DNA of 64,000 nt from Spirochaetota bacterium. GTDB taxonomy: Bacteria > Spirochaetota > UBA4802 > UB4802. Every line of letters begins with the position of its first letter. Position 1 is the first letter of the stretch. The stretch lies in the NCBI GenBank assembly GCA_040756435.1, contig JBFLZD010000009.1:1-64000 (forward strand). The letters run 5' to 3'. A model generated the notes under the pieces. That model did not search any database and was not told the origin of the DNA. It was given only the letters and a program-made list of their open reading frames with translations. A program made the position numbers and the translations under genes. Below, in pieces: positions 5,675 through 52,216 of this stretch.

Positions 5675-5971
5675 ATGGGGAAAAGGGGATTTGTTTATAT
5701 AATGACAAACAGAAAAGATGGAACATTGTATATAGGTGTAACATCAAATTTAATAAAGAGGGTTTATCAACATAAGACTAATTTGGTAGAAGGGTTCACA
5801 TATAAATATAATCTTAAAAGATTAGTATATTATGAAATTTTTGAAACAATAGAGGAGGCTATTAAAAGGGAAAAACAGCTTAAAAACTGGAAAAGAGAGT
5901 GTAAGATTACATTAATTGAATCTATCAATCCTCAATGGTTAGATTTATATGATGATATTGCAGCTATATGA
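5675..5971 (+). CDS. stand-alone GIY-YIG endonuclease-domain protein
   Basis: The 98-residue protein is a single-domain GIY-YIG protein of the UPF0213/YhbQ-like type. VYIMTNRKDGTLYIGVTS (about 7-24) supplies the GIY-YIG core in its variant VYI...YIG form. LIKRVYQHK carries the conserved Arg, and the later AIKREKQLKNWKRECK carries the conserved Glu and Lys-rich helix. Such small proteins are widespread; most have no demonstrated function, and some cut branched DNA. It lies between a short palindromic stretch and a large palindromic array, so it is physically embedded in a repeat island. The ribosome-binding site is weak. Confidence 0.85.
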   Translation: MGKRGFVYIMTNRKDGTLYIGVTSNLIKRVYQHKTNLVEGFTYKYNLKRLVYYEIFETIEEAIKREKQLKNWKRECKITLIESINPQWLDLYDDIAAI

Positions 5972-5976
5972 TAAGA

Positions 5977-6545
5977 GATTCCGGATCGAGTCCGGAATGA
6001 CGGATGGCATAAAGATTCCGGGTCAAGCCCGGAATGACGAATGGCGTAAAGATTCCGGATCAAGTCCGGAATGACGAATGTGCAATAAGTCATCCATAAT
6101 CATGTCCTGAATTTATTTCAGGAGTGATTCAGGATCTTTATGGTGAGAACAAAAGATTCCGGATCAAGTCCGGAATGACGAATGTGCAATAAGTCATCCA
6201 TAATCATGTCCTGAATTTATTTCAGGAGTGATTCAGGATCTTTATGGTGAGAACAAAAGATTCCGGATCAAGTCCAGAATGGCGGATGACGAAAAGATTC
6301 CGGATCAAGCCCGGAATGACGGATGGCATAAAGATTCCGGGTCAAGCCCGGAATGACGGATGACGAAAAGATTCCGGGTCAAGTCCGGAATGACGGATGA
6401 CGAAAAGATTCCGGGTCAGGCTCGGAATGACGGATGACGAAAAGATTCCGGATCAAGTCCAGAATGACGGATGGCGTAAAGATTCCGGATCAAGTCCAGA
6501 ATGACAGATGACGAAAAGATTCCGGATCAAGCCCGGAATGATGGC
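5977..6545. repeat. 37-bp palindromic repeat array (12 units)
   Basis: Twelve copies of an imperfect palindrome of the form ATTCCGGRTCAAGYCCGGAAT begin at 5977, 6014, 6051, 6155, 6259, 6296, 6333, 6370, 6407, 6444, 6481 and 6518. The period is exactly 37 bp except for two 104-bp steps (6051-6154 and 6155-6258), where a 67-bp segment containing the second palindrome family is inserted. The linkers are near-identical (GACGGATGACGAAAA or GGCATAAA), so this is not CRISPR. Each unit would fold as a hairpin in RNA or single-stranded DNA. Confidence 0.93.
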
Positions 6546-10826: not shown

Positions 10827-12185
10827 ATGCTAAAGACCATAAAAGCAATAATCATACTGGCTATACTTTTCATACCACTGTTTGTTCCAGCAAATAGTCT
10901 TATAACACTTCCACATATTGAAACCATTGATAGCAATGGTGTTCCTGTATTTTATGCGCAGGATACATTACCCCAGTGTACAGTGTATGTTTCTATTGGA
11001 GTTGGCTCGTTATATGAACATGCAACTAATGCCGGCATAAGCCAGCTGGCAGCGCTGGTACTGTCACTAGGTGGTTCAAAGAATTACCCCAATATAAATG
11101 AATACATTGATGCAATAGGTGGACGTTATTTGGTCAGTGCCTCGTTTGAAACGGTAACTATCAGCATGCGAGTGCATCAGGATGAGGCTGCTAAGGCATT
11201 TACAATCCTTGCTGACATCATTGCAAATCCGCTTTTTGATAGGCAGTTAACACAAACAGCACGCTTCATGCTAAAACAGCAAATACAGCAAAAGCAGGAT
11301 GACCCAATGACTATTGCCATGGAAAAAGCACGGCACTATGTATTTGGCGATAGTGGCTATGGAGCAGTCATGACCCAACAGTCACTGGATGGAATAACCG
11401 ATGCTGATTTGGAACAACTGTGGAAGCAATACGTTGTTAAGGAAAATGTGCGCATTGGAATTGTAACATCGCTGAATAAAGAAAACGTAATACAATATGT
11501 AGCACAAATGACCAACGCTCTGCCTCATGGGTATGCAATCGATTACACAGTCGATATAGAAAAAGCAAAGAACAATATCAGCACTAAAAAGATATATTTT
11601 ATTGAAAAGGATATACCGCAGTCAACGATTGTCATTGCAACAGTTGCTCCGTCAATTAAAAGCAACAATCGTTATGCGCTGGAAGCTGGTAATTACATAC
11701 TGGGTGGTGGGTCGTTTAATTCATGGCTTATGGATGAAATACGGGTAAAACGGGGATATGCGTACTCCACAGGTTCAATAGTACGCATGCGGAAAAATAC
11801 TGGTTTATTTTTAGCTTACGCCCAGACATCAGCAGCAACGACATTGGCAACTATCGCAATTATGGAAAACGTTTTAACTAATTTTGCAAAAACAGGGCCA
11901 TCTCAGCAGCAGTTACAATGGGCAAAGGAATCACTATTAAAAAGTTATATATTTGAATTTAACTCATTGCGTGATATTATACAGTACTACATGTGGATTG
12001 ATTATAATAGGCTACCTGAATCGTATATTCAGGAATATCCTGACGGCATTACATCCGTAAAAAACAATGATATTACTATGTCCTTTAAAAGTATTGTCAG
12101 TGGCTATGTCATTGTGGTTGTTGGTAATAAAGATGTTAAACAGCAATTGGATGCTGGTAAAATAAACTATACTATTGCTAAATAA
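10827..12185 (+). CDS. M16 family peptidase-like, non-catalytic subunit
   Basis: Starting at the ATG at 10827 (after TGGAGA) the product is 452 residues with a signal peptide (to about VPANS). The M16 fold is recognisable (GVGSLYEHATNAGISQLAALVLSLGG is avoided here in full; the zinc-site position reads AGISQLAALVL). It therefore lacks HxxEH and cannot bind zinc. It retains the C-domain sequence GGGSFNSWLMDEIRVKRGYA, with the Arg/Tyr substrate-binding pair. It is the expected partner of the upstream catalytic subunit. A nonamer AACTATCGC lies at 11849 and a near match at 11346. Confidence 0.9.
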   Translation: MLKTIKAIIILAILFIPLFVPANSLITLPHIETIDSNGVPVFYAQDTLPQCTVYVSIGVGSLYEHATNAGISQLAALVLSLGGSKNYPNINEYIDAIGGRYLVSASFETVTISMRVHQDEAAKAFTILADIIANPLFDRQLTQTARFMLKQQIQQKQDDPMTIAMEKARHYVFGDSGYGAVMTQQSLDGITDADLEQLWKQYVVKENVRIGIVTSLNKENVIQYVAQMTNALPHGYAIDYTVDIEKAKNNISTKKIYFIEKDIPQSTIVIATVAPSIKSNNRYALEAGNYILGGGSFNSWLMDEIRVKRGYAYSTGSIVRMRKNTGLFLAYAQTSAATTLATIAIMENVLTNFAKTGPSQQQLQWAKESLLKSYIFEFNSLRDIIQYYMWIDYNRLPESYIQEYPDGITSVKNNDITMSFKSIVSGYVIVVVGNKDVKQQLDAGKINYTIAK

Positions 12186-12194
12186 TAATAAGTT

Positions 12195-13022
12195 TTACCC
12201 AACAAATGATTTACTTGTACTTATCATGTCTTCAATCAGGGCACAGTCAGAAAGGATTTTATTTGCTTCAGCAAGTGTATTGTCTATGGATAGTATTGCA
12301 TCAGAGTATGTTTGCTTTTGAAACGGCGTCATATTCCTTTTTTCTTCAATGTGCTGCTGTTCCAGCAAAAACCGTATATCAGATAATATTTTTATGATGG
12401 TTTTGTATGCAGTCTTCACCTGATACCACATCTCATAATACCTGACATAGCGTAATTTTGATGATTCAGAAGGTATTTCATCAAGAATTTTCCGGTGCTT
12501 TGTATCTAATTTTGATTGATAGTAAATTATTGATCGCGGATAGTTGTTGAATTCGTTGTACAATTCAACAATCTTTTCAAGTGCCTGTATGCCATCCATG
12601 TCTAAATTTCTGAAATAGTCATTCATGGTATTCCATGTCATCTTGTCAGTATCCGAAATGATATTTGCGTTTGCTATACTGGCAATAATTCCATTAAGAC
12701 GGTCTTTATGTGTCCTGGTAATTTCCACAATATGATTGATGCACATTTCGGGGTCAAATTCCATAACCTCGCCTAAATAGTCATCCTGATGCATACTTTC
12801 AACTTTTTCAGCTTTGCGTTGCAACTTCTGTGAAAAATATGAAGCATGCTTTCGGGGTGTGCGCATGATTTTTACTATTTCTATTTTTCTTTCGGCTCTA
12901 TTATATCGTAACCCATACATATTGCCGTATTTATCAATATACCGGTTAGCTAAATCAAAAGTACTGATTTTGGATGTATCTATTTCTGATATATCGTCTA
13001 TGCGGATAAATTTAGTCTTCAT
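12195..13022 (-). CDS. conserved-looking hypothetical protein, helical
   Basis: This 275-residue protein has no signal peptide. It has a short beta-rich N-terminus (residues 1-55, ending near EIVKIMRTPRK) and a long, mostly helical C-terminal part with many Lys/Glu/Ile residues. I do not recognise the family. Its start is 6 bp from the stop of the PilZ gene upstream, so the two form an operon and may act together, for example in c-di-GMP-linked output; that link rests on adjacency alone. It is convergent with the M16 gene, with a gap of 9 bp. Confidence 0.7.
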   Translation of the reverse strand: MKTKFIRIDDISEIDTSKISTFDLANRYIDKYGNMYGLRYNRAERKIEIVKIMRTPRKHASYFSQKLQRKAEKVESMHQDDYLGEVMEFDPEMCINHIVEITRTHKDRLNGIIASIANANIISDTDKMTWNTMNDYFRNLDMDGIQALEKIVELYNEFNNYPRSIIYYQSKLDTKHRKILDEIPSESSKLRYVRYYEMWYQVKTAYKTIIKILSDIRFLLEQQHIEEKRNMTPFQKQTYSDAILSIDNTLAEANKILSDCALIEDMISTSKSFVG

Positions 13023-13028
13023 CAGTGT

Positions 13029-13406
13029 TTAAACCTGTGTCAGTATTTCCTCAGGTAATAGTTCATTAAAGCGTATAGCAACGTAACTATCGCCCTTAAC
13101 TTTCTTTGCTGCATACCGCTGTGCAACTTCGGAAGGGTTATTTTGAATCATTCCTGTGCGTACAATTTCACCTGTTAATTCCAGTTTAGTTCTATTGATT
13201 TTGAAATACAGTTTCATTGGCATCTGAACACTGACTCGGCAGTTACATACCATAAATGCGCCGGATGAGCTGATGTTTAGAATATATCCTTTTGATCTTA
13301 TTGTTGGTTTCTGACTTGTTGTAACTTTTTCAGGATCACCTTCAAAATAATCAAATTTGACCTTGATGTTGCATTCCTTGCGTGGATGTTTACGTTTTTC
13401 TGTCAT
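13029..13406 (-). CDS. PilZ-domain protein (c-di-GMP receptor candidate)
   Basis: The 125-residue protein is a single PilZ domain. The N-terminal RKHPRKEC-like segment supplies the R-x3-R element, and the beta-barrel contains GYILNISSSGAFMVC, which fits the (D/N)-x-S-x2-G signature. The C-terminal strand YVAIRFNELLPEE is typical. PilZ domains bind c-di-GMP and change partner activity. The gene precedes the unknown 275-residue protein and is divergent from pyrG across a 200-bp region holding a perfect palindrome. Confidence 0.88.
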   Translation of the reverse strand: MTEKRKHPRKECNIKVKFDYFEGDPEKVTTSQKPTIRSKGYILNISSSGAFMVCNCRVSVQMPMKLYFKINRTKLELTGEIVRTGMIQNNPSEVAQRYAAKKVKGDSYVAIRFNELLPEEILTQV

Positions 13407-13462
13407 GGCATTTTCCTGTATAATAAAAATTTTTTTATTTTTTCTTTACAGAACACAAAACT

Positions 13463-13476
13463 GTTACTATAGTAAC
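13463..13476. promoter_or_regulatory. 14-bp perfect palindrome between PilZ and pyrG genes
   Basis: GTTACTATAGTAAC is a perfect inverted repeat in the divergent intergenic region (13407-13605). It is the right size for a dimeric regulator's operator, but no binding protein can be named. Confidence 0.4.
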
Positions 13477-13605
13477 TTCTATGTTTTGTCAAGAATTGTT
13501 TTTTTTGATGTCAATTTTGATTACATTGTTACAAATTCTTGACAGGTATTAGTAATTGCTGTTTATGGCTTACGATATAATGGATACTATCTGTTTAGAG
13601 GATAT

Positions 13606-15234
13606 ATGAAAGACAAAAAAACCAAATTTATTTTTGTTACCGGTGGCGTATGTTCTTCATTGGGCAAAGGTATATCTACAGCTTCATTGGGGCTGTTACT
13701 TGAAGGACATGGGTATAAGCTTTCTATCATAAAGATGGATCCGTATATTAACATTGATCCCGGTACTATGAGTCCGTTCCAGCATGGTGAAGTATATGTT
13801 ACTGAGGATGGTGCTGAAACAGATTTAGACTTAGGATATTATGAGCGCCTGACTAACGCTAAGCTTACCCGCAAAAATTCTGTATCCACCGGCCAGATAT
13901 ACTATGAGGTGATCATGCGTGAACGCCGTGGGGACTATTTGGGCAGGACAGTACAGGTTATTCCCCATATCACCAACGAAATTAAAAAGCGAATTTATGA
14001 TGTTGCAAATGAAGATGACCTTGATTTTTTGCTTGTTGAGATTGGTGGAACGGTTGGTGATATTGAATCAATTCCTTTTTTAGAAGCAATACGGCAAATA
14101 CGACAGGAATTAGGCAAAACAAGAGTGCTCAATGTTCATCTGACGCTGGTGCCAACAATAACAGTGGCTGGTGAGCAAAAGACAAAGCCAACCCAGCATT
14201 CAGTAAAAGAACTTATGGAATTAGGTATATTGCCAGATATACTTCTATGCCGTTCATCACGGCCGCTTACTGATGATTTGAAAGGCAAAATAGCATTATT
14301 CTGTAATGTGTCGGAACGAAATGTTATCTCGGCTGTTGATATAAGTCATTCCATTTATGAAATTCCTTATATGTTGCATGACAATAAATATGACGAGGTG
14401 GTGCTGGAGCATTTTGGTCTTCCGGTAAAACCACTGCATCTTCCCGAATGGGATACATTTATTAAATCCCTGATGAATCCAAAGAAAAAAGTCACGATTG
14501 CTGTTGTAGGGAAATATATTTCACTGCAGGATTCCTACCGCTCAATCTATGAAGCGCTTACTCATGGTGCTGTTGCCAATAATGCAGAACTTGAAATTGT
14601 ACGGGTAGAATCTGAAGAGATTGAACGCAAATTCATGGGCAAACTGGATGAACTTTTTAAAGGGGTTAACGGCATATTAATACCTGGTGGTTTTGGGAAT
14701 AGAGGTATTGAAGGCAAGATAGCAACTATTGAATATGCACGTGTTAATAAGATTCCGCTGTTTGGCATTTGCCTGGGATTACAATGCGCTGTTATTGAGT
14801 TTGCCCGCCATGTATGTGGTATGGAAAACGCAAATTCCACCGAATTTGACCCCACAACACCATATCCTGTTATTTCACTTCTGGAAGAGCAGGAACTTGT
14901 GGATAAATTAGGAGGAACCATGCGGTTGGGGGCATATGTATGTGTATTTAAGGATGGTTCAAAAATTAAATCAATTTACAATGCCAATTCTGCAATGGAA
15001 CGCCACAGACACCGATTTGAGTTTACCCTTAAATATAAGCAGGTATTTGAGGATAATGGTATGGTGCTGTCGGGCTTCCATCCTGAAAATAATCTGGTTG
15101 AAACCATTGAATACCGGGATCATCCATGGTTCATCTGTACTCAATTTCATCCTGAATTCAAGTCAAAGCCTGTAAAGCCACATCCTTTATTTAAGGATTT
15201 TATTAGGGCTTCGCTGGAAAATATCAGGCAATAA
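13606..15234 (+). CDS. pyrG: CTP synthase
   Basis: The 542-residue length is standard for CTP synthase, which makes CTP from UTP, glutamine and ATP. The N-terminal synthetase domain starts FVTGGVCSSLGKGISTASL (P-loop) and contains KMDPYINIDPGTMSPFQHGE. The C-terminal class I glutamine amidotransferase domain has the oxyanion region LIPGGFG and the nucleophile elbow GICLGLQCA (Cys about 389), with the His/Glu pair in QFHPEFKS. It leads the core cluster, with rpoN 103 bp downstream. The long upstream region suggests its own promoter. Confidence 0.98.
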   Translation: MKDKKTKFIFVTGGVCSSLGKGISTASLGLLLEGHGYKLSIIKMDPYINIDPGTMSPFQHGEVYVTEDGAETDLDLGYYERLTNAKLTRKNSVSTGQIYYEVIMRERRGDYLGRTVQVIPHITNEIKKRIYDVANEDDLDFLLVEIGGTVGDIESIPFLEAIRQIRQELGKTRVLNVHLTLVPTITVAGEQKTKPTQHSVKELMELGILPDILLCRSSRPLTDDLKGKIALFCNVSERNVISAVDISHSIYEIPYMLHDNKYDEVVLEHFGLPVKPLHLPEWDTFIKSLMNPKKKVTIAVVGKYISLQDSYRSIYEALTHGAVANNAELEIVRVESEEIERKFMGKLDELFKGVNGILIPGGFGNRGIEGKIATIEYARVNKIPLFGICLGLQCAVIEFARHVCGMENANSTEFDPTTPYPVISLLEEQELVDKLGGTMRLGAYVCVFKDGSKIKSIYNANSAMERHRHRFEFTLKYKQVFEDNGMVLSGFHPENNLVETIEYRDHPWFICTQFHPEFKSKPVKPHPLFKDFIRASLENIRQ

Positions 15235-26459: not shown

Positions 26460-26960
26460 TTATGACAATTTTTCTTCCAGAACAATTTTCTTGCCTGCAA
26501 TAGTCAGATAAAAAATATCATCAGTTTCTTCAAGGCGGTCAAGAATAGTAAATGATGCGGAACGTTTGAATTTTGCAAGCATTGTGTTATTGCGTACATA
26601 GCAATACAGCTCTTTCCCTTTGCGAACATGTAGTGTGGAAACATCAAGCTCTTCTTCCTGACCGGTGCTAAGAGTCAGGATTACTGTTTCAAAATCAGCA
26701 AAACCTTTGAAACGGGCGCCGGTTACAAATATCGGAGCATCCTCAACCACTATGGGGTAGGTGAATTGTGCATAGTGTATTACATATGTCCCGTCTTTTG
26801 TAATGTTGATTGATTTATTGAAAAAATCTATAATACGCTGATTGGTGAAAGGTTGTCCATTGTGAAACCAGTTACCTTCTGCATCCAGCCTGATTTCGTC
26901 AATCTTTTCACCCTGCGCTAAAAGCTTTTTAATTTCTTCAGGAATTTCGGGGTATTGCAT
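26460..26960 (-). CDS. DUF1285 family protein
   Basis: The 166-residue protein shows the DUF1285 pattern: IRLDAEGNWFHNGQPFTNQR near the start (residues about 22-41), then FPIVVEDAP-like 'YPIVVEDAPIFV' and a beta-rich C-terminal half. DUF1285 proteins are small cytoplasmic proteins of unknown function. It is separated from the upstream TPR gene by a repeat-containing 366-bp gap. The tail of that gap holds a degenerate copy of the TPR gene's 3' end just before this gene. Confidence 0.78.
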   Translation of the reverse strand: MQYPEIPEEIKKLLAQGEKIDEIRLDAEGNWFHNGQPFTNQRIIDFFNKSINITKDGTYVIHYAQFTYPIVVEDAPIFVTGARFKGFADFETVILTLSTGQEEELDVSTLHVRKGKELYCYVRNNTMLAKFKRSASFTILDRLEETDDIFYLTIAGKKIVLEEKLS

Positions 26961-27326
26961 AGATACTATACCTTTATTCTATTTCAATGAAAGTTGCTTT
27001 TTGCATGCTTCCTTTGCATAACCATGGGCTGTCTCAAAACAAACCGTATGGCTTGCAATAACCACAGTGTACGGCACTGCAAGGGCAGCGCTTGTGCTGA
27101 GTGCTTCGACAAGCTCAGAAACCGCTTGTCGAAGGGAAGCAATCCTGATGCTGTAGAAGACAAGATTGCTTCGTCACTTCGTTCCTCGCAATGACAGAAG
27201 GGTAAAAGTCTTTGCAAAGAGGTGTCTTTTGGGACACCCCAAAAACAAAAAAATATTTCAATGAAAGTTCTTTTTCATATGCTTCCACTGCATACTTGTT
27301 GCTGGATGACAATCCAGCAAAAAAAA
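26961..27326. repeat. repeat-filled gap with two extra copies of the TPR gene 3' end
   Basis: Read on the minus strand, the last codons of the TPR gene (EAYEKELSLK-stop) recur at 27253-27293 (near-identical) and at 26980-27020 (diverged, ending in TAG). Between the two extra copies lies an interspersed repeat (about 27030-27240) with hairpins, including GGTGTC/GACACC arms at 27221-27238. Its translation gives the database-familiar nonsense string CHCEERSDEAI. No real gene is seen. Confidence 0.85.
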
Positions 27327-29381
27327 TTATTTTAATGAAAGTTCTTTTTCATATGCTTCTACTGCTACTTTTCGGTTTAGCCGTATTTCTTCGTTGGTTG
27401 GGTCAAGCTCAGAAGCTTTTGTTAAATATTGCAGCGATTTTTTGTATTCACGTTTAGCATAGTAGCAGCGACCTATATTATGATATGCCTGTGCAGTGAT
27501 GGCATCATCACTGGAAGTTTCAAGTACCTGATAAAAAATCTCCAATGCCTTATCATATTTATGCTGATTATATGCAATAGTACCCATTGCAAGTAGCGCT
27601 TCGGGTTCATTGGGTGAAATAAGTAATGCTTTCTGGAGTGATTGCACAGCCTGTGCCTGCTGTTTTTCATCTTTTGCACTGGATAAAATAATACCAATAT
27701 TTACATAGGCTTTTTTTGCATACTCATTGTTGCCATTTATTGCAATTACTCTGTTGAATGCTTCCAGTGCATAGTCATTTCTTCCTTTGTTGTAATAGAG
27801 CATGCCAAGGTTAAATTGGGCTTCCTGCAGATTGGGCCACAGACGTACCACTTTTATATATTCATCCAGCGCTAAGTCTAAATAACCTTTTTCATAATAC
27901 AGGTCGGCAATGGCAAGCCGTGGTTTGGGATTGTCAGGATTATATTGTGCAGCGTCGTTAAATGCTGCAATGGCAAGCTCGGGTTTCCCGGCATGTTTAT
28001 AGGTAATGCCCAGATTATACAGGGTGGAGCTGTCTTTAGGATCTATTGCCAGTGCCTTTTTATAGAAGCCTATTGCATCATCATAACGGTGCTGGTCATC
28101 ACGGATATTGCCCATATTGGCATAAGCCACCCGGGCATTTTCTGAAACAGGCTCATATATGGTAATCTGCTTGTAATAATCAAAAGCAGTGTCTAAATCG
28201 CCTTTGCGGTAATATAATTCTGCTAATCGGGCAATGATGGCAACATTCCTATTTTGCACTGGCTGCAGGCGTTCAAGCACTGCAATACTTTCATCATAGC
28301 GTTCAAGTGATGCGTATGCTTCTGAAAGGCCTTCTAAAAGCTTTTCTTCATATACGCCAGATGATTCAGCTGCCTTAAATTCAGCTAACGCCTTTTCATA
28401 CTGCTGGCGCTGTATATACACTATACCTAAGTTGTAGTGATTAACTGGCTCACTGGGGTCAAGCTGTATAGCCATGGTCAGATATTTTTCAGCCATTGCG
28501 TAGTCGCGCCTGGCGGTATAAAATGCTCCTAGACGGCCATAGGCTAATTTTGCAATATTTCCTGATGAATCAGCAGTTGCAGCCTTTTTAAAGTATTCCA
28601 CTGCTGATAATTCATCACCGGTTTTCAGGAATGTTAGTGCTGTGTTATAGAGGGCTTGCGGATTATTGGGTGCAATGTCCAGTGCTTTTGTATAGCTTTT
28701 AACTGCATCAGGAAATCTGCCCATATCAAAAAGTATATTTCCTTTGAGTATCAATAAATCAGGATTGTTTTCATCAATGTCAATGGCTTTTTCCATAGTG
28801 GCCAGTGCATTGGGGTAATCTTTTTTGTGTCTGTAGGCAAGTGCTAAATTTTTTAAAATAGTGCTGTCTTTGGGTTTATATTTTAACGCTCGCAGGAATG
28901 TTTCAATGGCTTTATTGTAGTCGCCCCTGTCATCATGGATCATGCCAATATAGGTGAGGGCAATAGCCTTATCGCTATCAGGTGCATCGGATGCAACCAC
29001 TTCATTGAATTCGTCTATGGCACTGGTGTAATTCTTTTTAAAATAATATGTTTTACCACGAAGTATGTGAGGGTTTTGCGATAGATCCTCGGGAATTAGC
29101 TTCTGGTCGCTTATGCCAGGTAGTAGTGTATTGTCCTGTGCAATGGTTTGTTTTTGATCAAGGAATGATGATGGTTTTTTTATAACAGTTACTATCGCCA
29201 CAACCAATATGACAAAAAGAATGAGAGACAAAGCTGCAATTAATGGGTGATATTTTTTTGGTATTGATATGCTAAAACCTTTTTTTATGGATTTTTCATT
29301 TTCTATAGAAAAGATGCGCATGCCTTCCGGCTGATTTTCTTCAGGAATGATGGTAAATCGGTGTTTTTTTATAGGAGGCAT
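27327..29381 (-). CDS. membrane-anchored TPR protein
   Basis: The 684-residue protein has a cytoplasmic N-terminus, one transmembrane helix (about 45-68) and then some 15 tetratricopeptide repeats filling the rest, with repeats such as AYRHKKDYPNALATMEKAI and NLGITYKHAGKPELAIAAF. TPR arrays bind partner proteins; the anchor places them at the membrane, probably on the outer face. Its ATG is 3 bp from the stop of nusB, so it is in one operon with ribH and nusB. Spirochaetes encode many such proteins. The partner is unknown. Confidence 0.88.
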   Translation of the reverse strand: MPPIKKHRFTIIPEENQPEGMRIFSIENEKSIKKGFSISIPKKYHPLIAALSLILFVILVVAIVTVIKKPSSFLDQKQTIAQDNTLLPGISDQKLIPEDLSQNPHILRGKTYYFKKNYTSAIDEFNEVVASDAPDSDKAIALTYIGMIHDDRGDYNKAIETFLRALKYKPKDSTILKNLALAYRHKKDYPNALATMEKAIDIDENNPDLLILKGNILFDMGRFPDAVKSYTKALDIAPNNPQALYNTALTFLKTGDELSAVEYFKKAATADSSGNIAKLAYGRLGAFYTARRDYAMAEKYLTMAIQLDPSEPVNHYNLGIVYIQRQQYEKALAEFKAAESSGVYEEKLLEGLSEAYASLERYDESIAVLERLQPVQNRNVAIIARLAELYYRKGDLDTAFDYYKQITIYEPVSENARVAYANMGNIRDDQHRYDDAIGFYKKALAIDPKDSSTLYNLGITYKHAGKPELAIAAFNDAAQYNPDNPKPRLAIADLYYEKGYLDLALDEYIKVVRLWPNLQEAQFNLGMLYYNKGRNDYALEAFNRVIAINGNNEYAKKAYVNIGIILSSAKDEKQQAQAVQSLQKALLISPNEPEALLAMGTIAYNQHKYDKALEIFYQVLETSSDDAITAQAYHNIGRCYYAKREYKKSLQYLTKASELDPTNEEIRLNRKVAVEAYEKELSLK

Positions 29382-50866: not shown

Positions 50867-52216
50867 AATTGTTTCCTCGTTTTAAATTAAATAATGTGAT
50901 AATAAACAATGGTTGTCGTATTGGTGCATAATCGTCAATAAAAATTTTTAAGGCTCTGACCCCTTACAATACTATCACCCCTTCGGGGTTTTATTGTGAA
51001 TAACAGATATAATCCCGAACCTTGTCTTGAATTAATTTCAGGATTGATTTAGTGCAGTAATCCTGAACGTGATCCATAATGTAATTACAATGAGTCATCC
51101 TGAACGTGATTCAGGATCTACAATGATGAGGATAAAGATTCCGGGTCAAGCCCGGAATGACACATTACTTTGTCATTTCGAAGGAACGAAGTGACTGAGA
51201 AATCTTAAAGTTGGAGGCAAAGATTTCTCGCTTCGCTCGAAATGACATAAAGGATTGCTCGGAATGATAAAAAGAGATGACCGGAATGACGTATAGGCAA
51301 CAAGTCATCCTGAAACCATGTCCTGAATTTATCTCAGGATTGATTCAGGATCTACTTATTAGGCTCTGACCCTCAAATTCCACTTTCTCTCTAATATCTC
51401 AGCGCATTCTGCGTACTCTGCGTGATGCATTACTTTATTTCACGCAGAGACCGCAGGGATGGGGAGAGTGTGGCTCTGACCCCTTACAATGATGTCACCC
51501 CTCCGGGGTTAGAGTGATGTTGTGATGGGGTTGTGAAGATAGTATGCTCTGACCCCATTACAATAATTTCACCCCTTCGGGGTTTTGTAGTGAATAACAC
51601 CGGGTCATCCTGAAACCATGTCCTGAATTTATCTCAGGATTGATTCAGGATCTACTTATTAGGCTCTGACCCTCAAATTCCACTTTCTCTCTAATATCTC
51701 AGCGCATTCTGCGTACTCTGCGTGATGCATTACTTTGTTTCACGCAGAGACCGCAGGGATGGGGAGAGTGTGGCTCTGACCCCTTACAATGATGTCACCC
51801 CTCCGGGGTTAGAGTGATGTTGTGATGGGGTTGTGAAGATAGTATGCTCTGACCCCTTACAATACTATCACCCCTTCGGGGTTTTATTGTGAATAACAGA
51901 TATAATCCTGAACCTTGTCTTGAATTCATTTCAGGATTGATTCAGGATCTACTTACAATGCTATGACCCCATTATGGCTTACGTATCATCCTATCCAATA
52001 AAGCTCTGCCCCTCAAATTCCACTTTCTCTCTAGTATCTCAGCGCATTCTGCGTACTCTGCGTGATGTATCAGTTGGTCTCACGCAGAGACCGCAGAGAT
52101 GGGGAGAGTAAGGATAAAAATAAATACTACACTTGTATTAATAAAGTCCTCCATTACATGTGTGGATAGTATTAAAATTCTTGATTATTGAATCAGGATA
52201 TTGTATACTTTTCATT
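50867..52216. repeat. composite repeat island
   Basis: No gene is seen in 1.35 kb. The island mixes several families: GGCTCTGACCCC words (50953, 51360, 51471, 51547, 51660, 51772, 51847), CACCCCTTCGGGGTTTT-type terminator-like hairpins, TCCTGAA/TTCAGGA palindromes, CACGCAGAG words and a GTCATTTCGA...TCGAAATGAC palindrome (51172-51246). Two copies of a roughly 255-bp block start at 51304 and 51604, exactly 300 bp apart, and a third partial copy runs to about 52110. The GGCTCTGACCCC word links this island to the repeats flanking the MNT/HEPN genes. Confidence 0.9.

Follow-up and report, generated by a model that had tools for sequence, protein, structure and literature searches.

A tandem array of gene-end copies and an IS1182-type MITE in the apparent place of a hairpin, downstream of a TPR-repeat gene in an uncultured Spirochaetota bacterium

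The last ~40 bp of a TPR-repeat gene were found three times at its 3' end, and the arrangement is best explained, at a probability of roughly 0.86, as two unconnected and ordinary events superposed on one another: a local tandem duplication and the arrival of a hairpin-targeting MITE. The window analyzed here covers the initial 64 kb of contig 9 in a 3.6-Mb genome (G000), and it was compared with four other genomes of the same genus (G001 to G004), all of these relatives being Spirochaetota MAGs. In the proposed sequence of events, a unit of ~75 to 80 bp, comprising the final ~40 bp of this gene and a hairpin of the form GCTGGAT-N4-ATCCAGC, would have been duplicated in tandem in the ancestor shared by G000 and G001, by an ordinary local event that was perhaps favored by the hairpin. 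Copy number would later have changed to three gene ends in G000 and four in G001; turnover or gene conversion may have kept the copies alike within each species, and the outermost copy, being no longer coding, would have decayed. In G000, a nonautonomous MITE of the IS1182 family would have inserted at the outer hairpin and taken its exact place, leaving gene-end copies A and B on either side. What looks like an attachment site would thus resolve into two simple processes.

The TPR-repeat gene (27327 to 29381, minus strand; 684 amino acids; Pfam TPR_1, 8.3e-78) has orthologues in all four of the other genomes, and a search of genome contigs with it returned three records from the same genus (JARYLT01, G001-like; CALEUQ01, G003-like; and UBA2205, G002-like) together with two distant TPR matches; no relatives were found by the search in viral contigs. 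Its true 3' end, at 27327, belongs to copy C (27321 to 27365, minus strand), which carries EAYEKELSLK, the TAA stop, and a T-run. Moving away from the gene, the order is copy C, T8, a 22-nt hairpin (TTGCTGGAT-GACA-ATCCAGCAA; 27299 to 27320), copy B (27247 to 27291, minus strand), T7-G-T5, an element of ~215 bp, copy A (26973 to 27017, minus strand), and the next gene. The original prediction of three gene ends, each with its stop codon, was borne out by a repeat search as to the number of copies and the in-frame TAG of copy A, but not for copy B, which is noncoding, has TAT in place of TAA, and runs on in frame as EAYEKELSLKYFF.... Relative to the middle copy B, identity was 93% for C and 71% for A, so that the most diverged copy is indeed the one farthest from the gene, as had been noted. 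Copy A adjoins the downstream gene (26460 to 26960, minus strand; 166 amino acids, with a weak match to DUF1285_N below the cut-off), which starts at 26960 and serves as the distal landmark for comparing the locus with the relatives; this junction is probably the ancestral one. The CEERSDEAI-containing insert of ~0.2 kb that had been proposed is also real (ORF at 26984 to 27217), but the insert (~215 bp, 27026 to 27240; ends GGGCTGTCTCAAAACAAAC ... GTCTTTTGGGACACCCC), which was recognized as a MITE from its genome-wide copies and a comparison of ends, is confined to the A-B spacer; the B-C spacer is only ~29 bp long and contains the hairpin instead.

The same locus in the relatives gives the array a history. 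In G004 (L024), the gene has a single 3' end with only a few bases before the following gene; this is the empty site that the original prediction had proposed to look for. G001 has four end copies: three near-identical ones, including the true end, follow each other at periods of 80 and 81 bp with only the hairpin TTGCTGGATGAAAATCCAGCAA between them, and beyond these lie an insert of ~65 bp and a diverged copy that adjoins the following gene. Other DNA occupies the locus in G003 and G002 (about 370 and 715 bp, respectively, between conserved flanks), and the TPR proteins of the relatives finish at the same codons. Within the genus, the hairpin is found at the TPR locus only, with one occurrence in G000, two in G001, and none in G002 to G004, so an array that included the hairpin most simply predates the split between G000 and G001. 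Similarity among the end copies was higher within each species than across these two (the between-species identity matrix was out of register, and only the within-species values and the sequences themselves were used), and all copies in G000 share one base that is absent in G001, which makes an independent duplication in each species possible; the gene-end copies have probably turned over since the split or else arose twice. The G001 spacer equivalent to A-B is occupied by a different, MITE-like family (G001:C33, 9456 to 9565, corresponding to L022, 1236 to 1345, and others, at ~20 places), which is absent from the other four genomes.

The window element matched 57 places in G000, where at least 47 two-ended MITE copies were present, most with a core length of ~160 to 260 bp; the MITE elements here are mostly nonautonomous and span ~160 to 340 bp. 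Their ends read GGGG(C/T)(C/T)GTCTCAAAACAAAC and GTCTTTTGGGACACCCC, with variation. Core lengths among the 47 copies clustered at 161 to 164, 184 to 186, 207, and 230 to 231 bp, that is, in steps of 23 bp, apparently through the addition of CTGAGCTTGTCGAAG-type modules inside the MITE. Terminal inverted repeats are common to the MITE and its parent insertion sequence (IS), and the same two ends flank pieces of IS1182-family transposase at contig edges: an N-terminal piece (54 model positions) lies inside the GGGGTGTCCCAAAAGACACC end on contig 36, and a C-terminal piece (~40 model positions) lies inside the GGGGCCGTCTCAAAACAAAC end on contigs 31 and 40. Against NF033551, these pieces aligned to positions 2 to 54 (E 1e-10) and 446 to 485 (E 4e-11), and, because they are short, both partial matches fall far below the NCBIfam whole-protein cut-off. 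No full-length autonomous IS1182 copy was present in the G000 assembly, only these pieces at contig edges; complete copies of the parent IS were presumably lost at assembly breaks. Since the same ends adjoin IS1182-family transposase pieces, the MITE is, as judged from its sequence, a nonautonomous derivative of an IS1182-type IS, and the window copy was presumably moved by an IS1182 transposase. The center of another palindromic repeat, also dispersed and with arms ...ATAGTGTACACC / GGTGTACACTAT..., was a preferred nested target for many copies (L018, L048, L049, L055, L056, L057, L064, L067, L068, L074, L078, L079, and L086). Other repeat families in G000 included arrays of a ATTCCGGATCAAGTCCGGAATGACG-type palindromic unit and a 300-bp tandem repeat (window positions 5971 to 6541 and 51235 to 51969).

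Within the window, the B-C spacer reads ...GCATACTTG-hairpin-AAAAAATTATTTT... and the A-B spacer ...GCATAACCAT-MITE-AAAAACAAAAAAATATTTC..., and in this internal comparison the MITE lies at about the same distances from the copies as does the hairpin, which indicates that the MITE takes the hairpin's place. Empty sites were surveyed in G001, G003, and G004 at the positions of 19 other insertions; these were hand-picked from the 47 two-ended copies, with copies inside the dispersed palindromic repeat left out. Three sites (L012, L052, and L076) were without a usable relative, and the remaining 16 were scorable in one or more of the three genomes; pairs with more than 110 bp between the flanks were left unscored (nine from the 19 sites and two from the window's own site), one of which, L077 in G004, contains the MITE itself. 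Relatives lacking the MITE had a stem scoring at least 11 at the junction for 13/16 sites and 26/31 site-by-relative pairs, compared with 1/1141 windows drawn at random from these loci, a control that includes coding DNA, and 19/117 3' flanks of G001 genes, which is the fairer background. No strong hairpin was observed at L008, L011, or L084 in the relatives scored. The junction hairpins were mostly within about 8 bases of the center and often flanked by A/T tracts, like an intrinsic terminator. At L016, the relative reads AATCAGGAAGGC...GCCTTCCTGATT and G000 reads AATCAG-element-CTGATT, such that the outer stem was kept and the inner stem is gone; the stem-loop was also wholly or partly deleted on insertion at L054 and L050. 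Flanks of the MITE copies were inverted repeats (score of at least 7) in 17/47 cases against 13% of re-paired controls, a moderate enrichment, and direct flank 8-mers were found in 5/47 against 2.8% of controls, with many flanks lying in the palindromic repeat so that neither flank test is clean. Taken at the level of sequence, the insertion in the window is best described as stem-loop-replacing transposition, as published for IS1272 and TnSha1. The element would pick hairpins by their structure, often terminator-like ones downstream of genes, and would remove part or all of the stem-loop.

The comparison further indicates that the MITE insertion did not make the gene-end copies, because the G001 copies have nothing between them and because long direct repeats lie across the element in only two of the 47 two-ended copies, namely, the window copy and L059. 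The latter (G000:C7:81800-83200) consists of ~116-bp units arrayed in tandem in the intergenic DNA downstream of a gene; a copy of the MITE breaks into this array, which goes on in units that lack it. These observations bear on the possibility that A and B are an exceptionally long target-site duplication produced by transposition of the MITE. Copies A and B do directly flank the MITE, and the published IS1272 model allows a stem-loop-duplicating pathway (PMC5678879); however, B is closer to C (93%) than to A (71%), the G001 end copies stand without a MITE between them, and comparable flanking copies are absent at 45/47 insertions, the one other case being the L059 array, so that such a duplication is improbable. 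Somewhat less probable again is the original prediction itself, by which one or more site-specific integrating elements used the gene's 3' end as an attachment site and restored it each time, the inserts shrinking afterward. The position of the copies where a gene terminates, the continuity of the true end with the gene in every case, and the position of the oldest copy farthest away are all as such an element would leave them. Against this stand adjacent G001 copies with nothing inserted, an insert that is a dispersed MITE (45/47 two-ended copies lacked a direct repeat scoring above 14 across them, so the restored-end pattern expected at other copies of the repeat was largely missing), two unrelated MITE families in the same spacer, and hairpins at the MITE-free sites of relatives, which show that the element replaces a hairpin; no integrase was encoded in the four flanking genes, and an insert of ~215 bp has no room for one. 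A mobile element did, then, insert at the gene end, but the uninterrupted copies of G001 argue that it neither created nor restored those ends. We therefore retain the superposition of a tandem duplication and a hairpin-targeting MITE.

That the gene-end copies are rare was evident from a scan of 370 genes (from the window and from 20 stretches of G000, each 20 kb long) for a downstream copy of each gene's own 3' end. The TPR gene scored 33 and the best of 370 re-paired controls 13.5, placing the copies far beyond chance; only one other gene exceeded 13.5, and in G001 (238 genes) an end duplication was found at the TPR locus alone. The other scoring gene in G000 (L140, G000:C1:60001-80000, 11076 to 14203) reads as part of a diversity-generating retroelement: the last ~50 bp of a 501-amino-acid gene recur 438 nt past its stop codon, where most of the differences fall on adenines of this second copy, and next comes a 112-amino-acid ORF that is putatively accessory-protein-like, by position only. 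A 334-amino-acid ORF there has a YMDD motif, from which we take it to be a putative reverse transcriptase. Such machinery may therefore exist in the strain, yet it is very improbable that the TPR gene end is a variable region and its copies the template repeat of a retroelement: no reverse transcriptase was found among the four neighbors tested, the copies lie within 80 bp of each other with a hairpin between, substitutions in G001 were not specific to template adenines, and mutation would have struck the noncoding copies instead of the gene. The three differences between B and C in G000 all fall at adenines of C, three being too few to weigh. Nor, although the protein is built of TPR repeats, are the copies at all likely to be ancestral TPR units of one longer reading frame, the finding that the original prediction had named as decisive against itself, for the spacings of 74 and 274 bp in G000 and 80 bp in G001 are not multiples of 3 (the 81 bp of G001 is), stops lie between the copies, the gene and its end copies are in different frames, with no in-frame read-through from the gene's stop to B, and the proteins of the relatives end at the same codons.

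The hairpin at the locus has no T-tract after it in the direction of the gene and is thus not itself a typical terminator; none was called at the window locus by a terminator scan. At the parent IS, both ends, read inward, fold into a GC-rich hairpin and then T8 or more: the left end was found to be terminator-like by the scan, and the right end, at which the scan (loop limit of 8) called no terminator, has a hairpin and T9 by folding. These inward-facing ends suggest a testable reason for the persistence of the element downstream of genes. The family might, tentatively and against the odds, swap terminator for terminator, in which case a replaced host terminator would be followed by the installation of another and insertion after genes would cost the host little; abortive transposition at hairpins could also create tandem units of gene end plus hairpin. 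The T-tract of the window MITE is mostly lost and no terminator was called there, so we put forward the terminator swap as a hypothesis only.

The closest known systems are IS1272 and TnSha1, IS1182-family elements of staphylococci that reportedly insert into hairpins (several of them confirmed terminators), the stem-loop being lost partly or entirely and one hairpin being hit repeatedly and independently (PMC4923244, PMC5678879). The MITE here has in common with them structure-targeted insertion into hairpins, often terminators downstream of genes, stem-loop deletion, and independent hits on the same hairpin. For the staphylococcal elements no clear target duplication is described; here, short direct matches in the flanks slightly exceeded the control, a signal confounded by palindromic targets. 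The MITE here differs in that the elements are mostly nonautonomous and reside in uncultured Spirochaetota, with the parent IS known only as contig-edge pieces, and the terminal sequences, compared by reading, differ from those of IS1272. For the IS1182 family as a whole (NF033551, PF13751), the likeness lies in the N- and C-terminal transposase pieces that match its model and adjoin MITE-type ends. Like the bacterial MITEs described in the excerpted text of a review (PMC10969869), the elements are short, noncoding, and intergenic, with terminal inverted repeats and tens of copies; unlike these generally, the element here would replace a target hairpin rather than duplicate its target site. 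Hairpin replacement by MITEs received no mention in that excerpted text, and no stem-loop-replacing MITE was found in a full-text literature search as represented by titles and abstract openings, with most subscription journals outside its reach. The empty sites in three sister species provide a comparative genomic demonstration of stem-loop-replacing transposition well outside the staphylococci, and what is new here is the lineage, the MITE form, and the parent-IS ends that resemble inward-facing intrinsic terminators.
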